NCBI GenBank assembly: GCA_040882465.1
Contig: JBBEBG010000002.1
Location: forward strand, 1-46,889
DNA from: Gemmatimonadota bacterium
GTDB lineage: Bacteria; Gemmatimonadota; Gemmatimonadetes; Longimicrobiales; Gaopeijiaceae
DNA: 46,889 bases
Direction of reading: 5' to 3'
Shown: piece by piece, positions 4,298-8,199 of the stretch
Layout: every line of letters starts with the position of its first letter
How positions within the stretch are numbered: position 1 is the first letter of the stretch
The notes under the pieces: model-generated
What the model was told of the DNA's origin: nothing
Seen by the model: the letters and a program-made list of their open reading frames with translations, nothing else
Database searches by the model: none
Translations under genes and position numbers: made by a program

Positions 4298-5536
4298 TTA
4301 CTGGCCGGGGGGATAACTTTCGAAGAAACGCCGGATGGCCCTCGCCATCGCTCGCGCGGTATCGCGGTGAAACTCGGCGTGGGAAAGGAGACGTTCTTCC
4401 TCGGGATTCGTGATGAACCCCAACTCCACCAGGACCGATGGCATCATCGAGTTCGTGATCACGGCGAACGGCCCCTGCTTGACTCCGCGGTCGGGACCCG
4501 GGTGAAAGGCCCCCAGCTCCCTCTGAACCTGATCGGCCAGCGCTGCGGACCAGTGCTGGTGGTCGAAGGTTCGAAGGTCGCGTAGGATGGCCCCGAGGAG
4601 GGGATCTCCCGCGGTCGCGCCCCCCGGCGACGCGCCCGCCGCGAGCGGGGCATTCTCCAGCGCTGCGACACGTCGTTCGTGCTCGTCCCTCGCCTCGGAG
4701 AGGAAATACGTCTCGAATCCGCGGACTCCGGTTCGGTCCGGAAGCGCGTTGGCGTGAATCGAGATGAAGACACCCGGGCGGTCCCCCTTCCACCCCGTCG
4801 CCGACTCCCCCCGGCTCCAGATGGGGATCGCAACGTCTCGGTCCCGAGTGAGGCGCACCTCGATTCCGGGATCATTCGCGAGCTCCCGCGCGAGGGCCAT
4901 CGCCATGGCCAGCGCCACGTCCTTTTCGCGAGTCCCGCGACCGCCGATCGCGCCGGGGTCCTCTCCTCCATGCCCGGGATCGATCACGACGATCCGGGGA
5001 GCGCGGGCCTCCGCCGGGGTCGTCGCGGGGGGGAGGGGAGAGGGGGAGCCGGGAACCGGATTCCTCACGGTCGCCTCCGACGCGTCGCCCGCCCCCTCGA
5101 CCTGCAGGACGAAGCGCTCCGAATCGAAGCGGTATGCGCGGGGGAGGAGCCCGGGGAAGAGATCCACGAGGAGCTGAACCGGGAGATAGAGGCTCTCCCC
5201 GAACCAGTAAGGGGCGTGCGCCGTCTGGAGGAGCCCCTCGTCCCAGAGGAAAAAAGGCGAGCCGGGCGTGAATCGAAGGGTGAGGCCGGACCGGTGCCGC
5301 AGCACGACGTCTTCTCCGTCGGGCCGGATCGAGGCGCCCCAGCCGAGAGGGCCCAGTGCCGAGGCGTCGAAGGCTGGATACCCGCGATGGCTCGCGATCT
5401 GGATCGCGCTTCCGGGGCCGTGCGGGAGGCTGACTCCGAGGCTTCTTCCTCCCTGGCCGGCCAGGGATGCGGGGAGGAGTGTGAAGAGGGCGGCGGACAG
5501 GAGGAAGGGGCGGCGGATCGTTACTGGGGTCTTCAT
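4298..5536 (-). CDS. N-acetylmuramoyl-L-alanine amidase (Amidase_3), secreted
   Basis: The 412-residue product cleaves the amide between MurNAc and the stem peptide of peptidoglycan in the periplasm. A signal peptide (MKTPVTIRRP plus a hydrophobic core to about residue 28) is followed by a domain resembling the copper-amine-oxidase N-terminal-like fold (PYWFGESLYLPVQLL, 109-123), a Pro-rich linker (about 160-180) and the catalytic domain. Zinc ligands are H189 in DPGHGG, E204 and H261 in SIHANA; the catalytic Glu is in VLVELGFITN. Another in-frame ATG lies four codons upstream. It sits 17 bases downstream of smpB. Confidence 0.9.
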   Translation of the reverse strand: MKTPVTIRRPFLLSAALFTLLPASLAGQGGRSLGVSLPHGPGSAIQIASHRGYPAFDASALGPLGWGASIRPDGEDVVLRHRSGLTLRFTPGSPFFLWDEGLLQTAHAPYWFGESLYLPVQLLVDLFPGLLPRAYRFDSERFVLQVEGAGDASEATVRNPVPGSPSPLPPATTPAEARAPRIVVIDPGHGGEDPGAIGGRGTREKDVALAMAMALARELANDPGIEVRLTRDRDVAIPIWSRGESATGWKGDRPGVFISIHANALPDRTGVRGFETYFLSEARDEHERRVAALENAPLAAGASPGGATAGDPLLGAILRDLRTFDHQHWSAALADQVQRELGAFHPGPDRGVKQGPFAVITNSMMPSVLVELGFITNPEEERLLSHAEFHRDTARAMARAIRRFFESYPPGQ

Positions 5537-5553
5537 GCGGCAGTGCATTCCGT

Positions 5554-6018
5554 TCACTCCCGGCGCATCGCGCGTTGGGCCTCCCTCTCCTGCGTGCGGC
5601 GCTTCAGCTTCTCTCGCTTGTCGTGGAGCTGCTTCCCTCGGGCCAGCGCGAGGGTCGTTCGTGCGTACCCGTTTCGGAAGTAGATGTCGAGCGGGACGAG
5701 GGTCAATCCCTTTTCCTCCACCTTCCCGATCAGCTTTCGGATCTCGTGGCTGTGCAGGAGGAGCTTCCTCGGCCGCTCGGGATCCTGGTTCCAGCGGTTC
5801 GCCGGATCGTAGGGTGAGATGTGGAGCGAGTGGAGCCAGATCTCTCCCCCTTCGACACGTGCGTGGGCGTCCTTGAAGGAGACCTTTCCTTCCCTGAGCG
5901 ACTTCACCTCGGGCCCAGCGAGGACCAGCCCCGCCTCCCACGTGTCGAGGATGTGATACTCGTGGCGAGCCTTCCGGTTCGTCGCGACGATCCGGCGCCC
6001 TCCACGCTCCTCGTTCAT
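5554..6018 (-). CDS. smpB: SsrA-binding protein
   Basis: This 154-residue protein binds tmRNA and brings it to stalled ribosomes for trans-translation. Family signatures are present: NRKARHEYHI near the N-terminus, GPEVKSLREGKVSFKDAHA in the first third, and the basic C-terminal tail (KREKLKRRTQEREAQRA) that enters the mRNA channel. The start MNEERGG gives the usual length; the reading frame stays open further upstream but without family similarity. The tmRNA gene is not in this window. Confidence 0.96.
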   Translation of the reverse strand: MNEERGGRRIVATNRKARHEYHILDTWEAGLVLAGPEVKSLREGKVSFKDAHARVEGGEIWLHSLHISPYDPANRWNQDPERPRKLLLHSHEIRKLIGKVEEKGLTLVPLDIYFRNGYARTTLALARGKQLHDKREKLKRRTQEREAQRAMRRE

Positions 6019-6077
6019 CCCGCCTCCACCGCGGTGCTCGCCACCGTGCCTCCGAGGCGCGGGGCTAGTGTCCCGTC

Positions 6078-7697
6078 CTAGAAGATGAGGACCGGCGTTC
6101 CCACCCCGACGCGGTGGTACAACTCGCGGGCGGCCTCGTTCGTCAGCCGGATGCAACCGTGCGAGACGCGCCTGTCATCGGGGTTGATGAAGTCGATGAG
6201 GAGCTGGGGCCGGTCGGTGCCATGGATCGCGATGCCGTCGCCGAGAAAAAGCGCCGAGGTCCCGAGGGTGTTGGGGGACCGGTAGCGGTCCTCGGGCGCG
6301 GGGATTGCACGGCCCTGTTCCACGTACCACCAATCCGGCGCGATCCACTCGGGGTCTTTTTCCTTGCGGAGAACGTGGAAGAGCCCGACCGGAGTCGTGA
6401 AGGTCCACTCCCGGCCCTGTCCCTCGAGCTGATACCCGGTTCCGGTCCCGGCGCGAGCGGACCAGACGACCTCGGTCCCCTCCATGACGAGCACCCGGTT
6501 TTCGGCGATGTGGACCACGATGTAGGGCCCGTCCGTTTGGACGAGCGGACGATCGAGGGAGAGGTTTCGTTCGAGGGTCTGCTCGGCGAGGACGACCCCT
6601 TCGCCGCCATTGAGGAAGCCCGTGGTCTTCCCATTCCCCCCGAAGGGCGCGAGTCCGTCCTGGCCGGCGGCGCCGGCCGGAAGGAGGAGGGAAGAAGCAA
6701 GGAGCGAAAATACTGCCAGAATGGCAGCGACCGTCCCGGGGCCACCGCCCTCCTGCGTCTTTTCGCGGGCGTCCTGAATCGCGTCCATTCGCTTGACCCT
6801 CCGCTTCTCGTACACACGGGCCACCTGGCCCCCCAGGATGAAGACCGCGGCGCTGTAGTAAATCCAGAGAAAAAGGATCGCTACGACCGCGAGGCTCCCG
6901 TAGGCGCTCGAGTAATTCGCCACCGAAGTGGCGTACCAGGCGAACACCCCCTTCATGACCTCGAAAACAACTGTAGCAAATGTCGCGCCAACGGTGGCGG
7001 TGCGAAAGGGGATAAGGCGCGCCGGGACATACCGATAGAGGAGAAAAAACAGAATCCAGGCCGCGGAGAAGGAGATCACGTGCCCCGCCGTGGCCTGCAG
7101 GAGCTCCGCGACCCGGCTCGCGAGGCCGAGCCCGGCCCCGACGTCGCCGAGCGCCCGGGATGCCACCGTCACACCCACGTTCAGAACGAGGAGGAAACCG
7201 CCCACCACCACGACATAAATGTCGAAGAGTTTTCCCACGAGGATCCCCCGGTCCTTCTCCACATGGAAAACCTGCCGGAGGACGACCCGAAGGGTCGAGA
7301 CGAGGCGGGTCGAGATCCAAAGGAGGAAAAGAGCCGCGAGGATCGTGAAGCCGGTGCGCTCCTCCATCAGCCCCCCGAGAAGGCCACGGACCGCCTGGGT
7401 GAGCTCGATGTCTCCCTCGACCGCCGGAAAATACGAGAGAACGACCTCGATCAGCTCCGGGGAGGCACCGCCGAATCGGGCGGTCAGGACGAATCCCAAA
7501 AGCCCCGCGACGAGAAGGAGGAGGGGAACCCCGGCGAGCAGGACGTTGAAGGTGATCGCGCCGGCCAGGAAGAAAAAGTCGCTCCGGCTGACAATGGTCC
7601 AGAGCTCGGCCAGGAAGCCGAGCGGTCCGGGGCGTTCGCGGAGCGGGGGACGCGCGGGCTCCGCGGAGGAATCCCGCCGCCTAAAGGGGTTGATCAC
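6078..7697 (-). CDS. BrkB/YihY-family membrane protein fused to an L,D-transpeptidase domain
   Basis: One uninterrupted 539-residue frame joins two usually separate proteins. Residues about 25-300 are a six-helix UPF0761/YihY (BrkB) membrane domain, with AITFNVLLAGVPLL at 47-60 and the late helices NYSSAYGSLAVVAILFLWIYYSA. A basic loop (EKRRVKR) and a seventh hydrophobic segment (321-345) follow, then a YkuD-type L,D-transpeptidase domain (about 390-539) with H492 and the S512-H513-G514-C515 active-site motif. YkuD enzymes make 3-3 peptidoglycan crosslinks or attach proteins to peptidoglycan. The seventh helix would place the catalytic domain in the periplasm. The start is a GTG at 7695-7697 with a weak ribosome site. 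An ATG at codon 304 (6786-6788) has GGAGGG eight bases upstream and could start a separate exported enzyme. Confidence 0.88.
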   Translation of the reverse strand: MINPFRRRDSSAEPARPPLRERPGPLGFLAELWTIVSRSDFFFLAGAITFNVLLAGVPLLLLVAGLLGFVLTARFGGASPELIEVVLSYFPAVEGDIELTQAVRGLLGGLMEERTGFTILAALFLLWISTRLVSTLRVVLRQVFHVEKDRGILVGKLFDIYVVVVGGFLLVLNVGVTVASRALGDVGAGLGLASRVAELLQATAGHVISFSAAWILFFLLYRYVPARLIPFRTATVGATFATVVFEVMKGVFAWYATSVANYSSAYGSLAVVAILFLWIYYSAAVFILGGQVARVYEKRRVKRMDAIQDAREKTQEGGGPGTVAAILAVFSLLASSLLLPAGAAGQDGLAPFGGNGKTTGFLNGGEGVVLAEQTLERNLSLDRPLVQTDGPYIVVHIAENRVLVMEGTEVVWSARAGTGTGYQLEGQGREWTFTTPVGLFHVLRKEKDPEWIAPDWWYVEQGRAIPAPEDRYRSPNTLGTSALFLGDGIAIHGTDRPQLLIDFINPDDRRVSHGCIRLTNEAARELYHRVGVGTPVLIF

Positions 7698-7733: not shown

Positions 7734-8138
7734 TCAGGACTCCTCTCCCTCCTTCGCCGCCGCCCGGGCTGCATCCACCCCCGCGCGGTAAGCCGCCTTC
7801 GAGCGCTCGATCCGGTCCTCCAGCTCGCCCCGGGCCTCGCGCGCAGTCTCTTTTCCCGACTCCACGGCGGTGCGGAATTGGTCCACGCGGTCCATCACCT
7901 CCGTACGAGTCTGGTCCAGCTTGTCCTCGAGTTGGCGCTGCATCTCGCGGACGCGCTCCTCCGCGGCGTCGCGGAACTTCAGCGCCTTCTCCTTGATCTC
8001 CCGCTGCGTCTCTTCACCCGACTTGGGGGCGAACAGGAGTGCGATCCCCGCGCCGAGGAGCGCCCCGAAAATGAACGCTCCGACCCCGCCGCTCTCCCGC
8101 TCCACCACGATGTAGGGCACCTCGTCACGATCCCGCAT
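7734..8138 (-). CDS. YtxH-like membrane-anchored coiled-coil protein
   Basis: The 134-residue product has a glycine-rich transmembrane helix (about residues 18-34, GAFIFGALLGAGIALLFAP) followed by KSGEETQ and a long charged amphipathic region rich in Glu, Arg and Ala, predicted as coiled coil. This is the layout of YtxH/gas-vesicle-like proteins, linked to envelope stress in some bacteria; its molecular role is unknown. A strong GGAGGAGGG ribosome site lies just upstream of the chosen ATG. It precedes the BrkB-transpeptidase gene by 36 bases and is likely cotranscribed with it. Confidence 0.82.
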   Translation of the reverse strand: MRDRDEVPYIVVERESGGVGAFIFGALLGAGIALLFAPKSGEETQREIKEKALKFRDAAEERVREMQRQLEDKLDQTRTEVMDRVDQFRTAVESGKETAREARGELEDRIERSKAAYRAGVDAARAAAKEGEES

Positions 8139-8199
8139 TTCCCTCCTCCTCTTCGCCTTCGATCCGTGTTCGGGCTCGATCCCGCGGACTGGGCTCAAG

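Follow-up and report, generated by a model that had tools for sequence, protein, structure and literature searches.

An in-frame fusion of BrkB/YihY and L,D-transpeptidase genes in Gemmatimonadota that appears to keep the start and export signal of its second gene

We found that the window, a 46,889-nucleotide stretch of a Gemmatimonadota genome, carries one uninterrupted reading frame in which a BrkB/YihY membrane domain is continued by an L,D-transpeptidase (LDT) of the YkuD family (Table 1). The gene is probably an in-frame fusion of an old brkB-ldt pair, in which the start and the signal peptide of ldt were kept and from which a joined and a free product would be made. The two-domain fusion recognized in the original prediction was confirmed, but its strand had to be corrected to minus.

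Table 1. Coordinates of the fused frame, its internal features and its conserved neighbours in the window.
Feature	Position	Strand	Basis or remark
brkB-ldt fused reading frame	6078..7697	minus	GTG start as listed (putative); full-length relatives
BrkB/YihY domain (PF03631), six-helix membrane domain	6798..7586	minus	Profile match and model helices
GGAGGG Shine-Dalgarno-like site in the BrkB C-terminal tail codons	6797..6802	minus	Precedes ATG 304
ATG codon 304, conserved internal start, probable ancestral ldt start	6786..6788	minus	Invariant Met (17/17) and synonymous-codon tests
Signal-peptide-like segment, codons 304-345, ending AAG/Q346	6663..6788	minus	Q346 invariant
YkuD L,D-transpeptidase catalytic domain (PF03734), H492 and SHGC 512-515	6084..6527	minus	Pfam and active site
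ytxH-like gene	7734..8198	minus	Directly upstream of fused frame; conserved neighbour
smpB	5554..6021	minus	Directly downstream of fused frame; conserved neighbour
N-acetylmuramoyl-L-alanine amidase (Amidase_3)	4298..5540	minus	Next downstream; another cell-wall enzyme

The frame runs from a GTG at 7697 to a stop codon at 6080-6078 and comprises 539 codons counted from this GTG, with 551 codons open in total. The start of the long form is uncertain, because the alignments of most relatives begin only at about residue 27. The Pfam BrkB profile was matched over nearly its whole length by residues 38-300 (E 8.6e-45), with a score of 153.8 bits against a cut-off of 33.7 for PF03631, and TIGR00765 scored 129.2 against 73.15. 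Pfam YkuD was likewise matched nearly over the whole profile, by residues 391-538 (E 4.3e-24, 86.2 bits against a gathering score of 23.4). The catalytic motif was intact, with H492 upstream of S512-H513-G514-C515-I516-R517, and H492 and SHGC were invariant in the aligned relatives. Judged by its sequence, the YkuD half is a standard LDT, predicted to produce 3-3 cross-links or protein attachment, and its relatives of solved structure were LDTs. The AlphaFold2 model of the fused protein (mean pLDDT only 68, pTM 0.52) showed long helices over residues 41-316, matching the approximately six membrane helices expected for the BrkB half, but the confidence was low across the join. In a fold search with this model, nothing matched the BrkB half significantly, and the LDT matches obtained with the whole model were no more than weak.

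It had been stated in the original prediction that the two domains are normally separate, and this holds for many members of the order, in which they are encoded by separate adjacent genes. Among 58 related genomes, the uninterrupted fused frame was present in eight other genera of the family at 54-63% identity. A family-wide search (121 genomes) gave 19 full-length single-frame fusions with the window's own included, namely 17 in one main clade (the window and 16 genomes) plus L040 and L041. A first scan of a genome collection with the single fused protein as query yielded no matches, and the scan with an alignment as query yielded 46 loci, nearly all from Gemmatimonadota. The public names of the fusion carriers were Gemmatimonadota and in some cases Gemmatimonadales, and Longimicrobiales appeared among the unfused relatives. 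One MAG titled Gammaproteobacteria (L047, JAHEKL010000072.1) has the fusion within Gemmatimonadota gene order, and its label is probably wrong. The source of most fused members was the CSSed, PLM and LCM isolates (L048-L062), which we take to be from soda-lake sediments. That an assembly or sequencing frameshift had joined two genes could be suspected, since elsewhere in the family and order many members have the two genes apart. This was ruled out, because the uninterrupted frame recurs in the eight other genera and in 16 further genomes of the clade, with an identical stop-free join at the same residue, and it is hardly conceivable as an explanation.

The gene neighbourhood indicated how the fusion may have arisen. 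In other parts of the family, and in two further families of its order, the two genes were often separate neighbours, and a candidate ldt start of such split pairs was frequently located 4 bases before the end of brkB. The block pyk-mbl-pgi-ytxH-brkB-ldt-smpB-amidase-pyrD-pyrF was largely syntenic across the family. Because the separate adjacent genes sit in this conserved neighbourhood elsewhere in the order, the fusion reads as a run-on of an old gene pair. In the trees of both domains, 17 fusions fell into one clade. This clade also includes L042, in which the genes are split again, L012, which has only BrkB, and L011, which has only the LDT. L041 is fused but lies inside a split clade, and L040 is placed as sister of the main clade by the BrkB tree, a position that the LDT tree does not show. 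From these positions of L040 and L041 relative to the main clade, we infer that the fusion arose at least twice and probably three times; as read from the sequences, it was also undone or lost more than once. In the Baikal-deep MAG L012/L066 (genome of 1.6 Mb), the BrkB frame stops near the former junction and a YkuD gene was not found in the genome, which is a natural loss of the enzyme half. At six loci (L077, L080, L083-L085 and L089), brkB's place between ytxH and ldt was taken by a gene called transaldolase-like from reading its sequence rather than from a family scan, and smpB followed ldt in several of them. The possibility that a divergent BrkB was hidden in the long frame upstream of LDT-only loci was rejected for the loci read, where the gene reads transaldolase-like.

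Codon 304 had been proposed as an internal start for a free enzyme. A Met was present at this place in 17/17 main-clade fusions amid a variable linker, always eight residues past the aromatic (or His) position close to where the BrkB domain ends, and across nine genera no other residue between G289 and N355 was invariant. In a test in which synonymous codons, drawn according to the codon usage of the respective gene, replaced those upstream, the mean Shine-Dalgarno (SD) energy at the junction Met was -9.4 kcal/mol versus -6.8 for the recodings (combined z -4.7; the 17 fused sequences are related, and the combined z-scores here and below overstate independence). By comparison, SD energy averaged -4.5 (z -1.0) over 104 other internal Mets in these genes. 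Few parts of each gene were less structured than the region around the junction Met, which also showed a GC3 dip, with z of +5.8 for low structure and -5.5 for low GC3 against synonymous recodings, compared with -1.3 and +2.6 at the other internal Mets. With one sequence per genus, the junction Met differed from other Mets in SD energy (p 2.8e-5) and in low-structure rank (p 5e-4). The mbl starts, used as a positive control, scored weaker than the junction Met (SD -5.6, rank 0.58), so that these measures are suggestive and none is diagnostic singly. At the clade level the internal start is well supported by the conserved Met, the SD site and the synonymous-site signals, but the inference is weaker for the window's single gene, because its own copy has a strong SD (-10.6) without the low-structure or low-GC3 signal. 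The fused gene of L040 has no start codon at the junction site; therefore, the free form would not be required everywhere. Across the clade, the inner start and the export-cleavage site of the second gene appear to be under selection, and one frame probably yields both the joined and the free enzyme.

A small residue followed by Gln closes the hydrophobic segment after codon 304 in all fused proteins, with Q346 invariant in 18, and this motif was kept in L040 despite the missing inner start codon. The unfused LDTs of the order have a matching A-x-A/Q ending, and the neighbouring amidase has LAGQ at the corresponding N-terminal position. All copies had the hydrophobic core and the cleavage-like site; the n-region charge was mixed, and the net charge of -2 after Met304 in the window's copy is poor for a free signal peptide. 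What was originally taken as a seventh helix resembles a retained signal peptide more than an anchor. On this reading it would be cut before Q346, and the LDT is more likely to be released than to stay tethered; the small-residue/Q site in all fused proteins does not sit well with the permanent tether first proposed. A terminator-like hairpin with a T-rich tail was observed at 6728-6712 on the minus strand, inside the signal-peptide codons; such hairpins in the region (4 sites versus 2.0 ± 1.5 expected) were not clearly above chance.

These observations can be arranged into the following course of events. Ancestral neighbours, brkB and a gene for a secreted LDT, would have become one continuous frame when the brkB stop was lost in a single Gemmatimonadota clade, with the ldt start codon, ribosome-binding site, signal peptide and signal-peptidase site all retained. 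Ribosomes initiated at brkB would meet no stop at the junction and produce BrkB-signal sequence-LDT, and those entering at codon 304 would produce a free LDT precursor. The hydrophobic segment 322-345 of either product would insert with its N-terminus inside, which fits the presumed cytoplasmic C-terminus of BrkB. Signal peptidase I would probably cut before Q346, and most of the LDT would be freed as a periplasmic enzyme, modifying peptidoglycan by 3-3 cross-linking or protein attachment. BrkB would act separately in the inner membrane, perhaps in lipid or LPS handling as in its paralogue YhjD. The fusion, its history, the conserved start signals and the cleavage-like site are visible in the sequences compared, whereas internal initiation, cleavage and both biochemical activities are predicted from them.

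The joined form might alternatively be the functional unit, with BrkB and a seventh helix holding, and perhaps controlling, the LDT at the inner membrane, and with the Met and the small-residue/Q site being incidental. In favour of this, 17 genomes of a single clade retain the open frame, a further fusion arose in L041 and probably another in L040, the latter lacking the inner start codon at the junction, and the window's genome (99.6% complete) gave no BrkB or YkuD match besides the fused gene. However, an obligate tether leaves unexplained the synonymous-site signals at the Met and the invariant Gln of the cleavage site, and fission or loss of one half has occurred within the clade (L042, L012 and L011); we regard it as unlikely. 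An equally doubtful extension is a regulated two-output gene, in which one mRNA would give BrkB-tethered and free LDT in proportions governed by internal initiation and signal-peptidase cleavage, and in which a lipid-handling YihY protein of the inner membrane would be coupled to peptidoglycan cross-linking in high-salt, high-pH habitats.

The joined form might also be a functionless run-on. Selection would then act on the free LDT, hence the persistence of its start and signal peptide, and the BrkB tail would tolerate the extension. This is a sub-case of the fusion with retained start described above, the one point of difference being whether the joined form matters, and its chances are about even. 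The long-conserved synteny, the separability of the two genes and the transaldolase-like gene in brkB's place are in line with it, but the fusion was kept in 11 main-clade genera over deep divergence, although the re-splits and losses show that it is reversible.

The original prediction further suggested a link between YihY proteins and peptidoglycan cross-linking. For this, the evidence is weak: the partners are lost singly, the transaldolase-like gene replaces brkB, and the pair sits in a housekeeping block. An LDT was present and a BrkB gene was not found in genome G031, and the reverse applied to G032, with BrkB present and no YkuD gene found. Together with the other members in which ldt is absent at the locus and the transaldolase-like replacement, these cases indicate that the brkB-ldt pair is separable, and a shared neighbourhood is by itself weak evidence for shared function. 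No paper connecting BrkB with LDTs came up in our literature searches, and fusions were not mentioned in a recent LDT review. The best experimental lead found for BrkB function is by analogy to E. coli YhjD, a YihY paralogue with a reported role in LPS transport (PMC3219608). In Acinetobacter, a link of LDT to outer-membrane lipid homeostasis was reported (PMC12548408). Because of these two reports, an envelope partnership of BrkB and LDT is plausible.

The fusion bears on a protein family, YihY/BrkB, that is widespread but poorly understood in function. The recurrent fusion and the order-wide pairing with a cell-wall enzyme provide one concrete lead on this family, though the pairing may be merely positional. 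The case also presents a gene fusion that keeps the start and the export signal of the downstream gene under apparent selection; gene finders annotate one long protein, and would therefore miss both.

Both protein families and in-frame internal starts are known; their combination is new and evolutionarily traceable. Like other members of the YihY/BrkB family (PF03631, TIGR00765), the fused protein has a complete domain with the six-helix segment and scores above both cut-offs, but a signal sequence and an enzyme follow on at its C-terminus. NCBIfam PRK04214 describes YihY fused to another unknown domain, and the match of the fused protein was far below its cut-off. YhjD of E. coli (TIGR00766) shares the superfamily and weakly matched the BrkB half; it is, however, a separate gene without an attached enzyme, and the LPS role belongs to YhjD. 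With the YkuD L,D-transpeptidases (PF03734) the protein shares a complete catalytic domain with the conserved His and SHGC, although none of the LDT equivalog models reached its cut-off with the fused protein, and here the enzyme occupies the 3' half of a gene for a membrane protein. Archaeal Cas11b is reported to be a second product made from an in-frame internal start (PMC11899642). The two cases are alike in that one frame gives a second product through an internal start, which is predicted here; they differ in that the inner start of brkB-ldt appears to be inherited from a once-separate neighbour gene, and in that its inner product is a predicted secreted enzyme.
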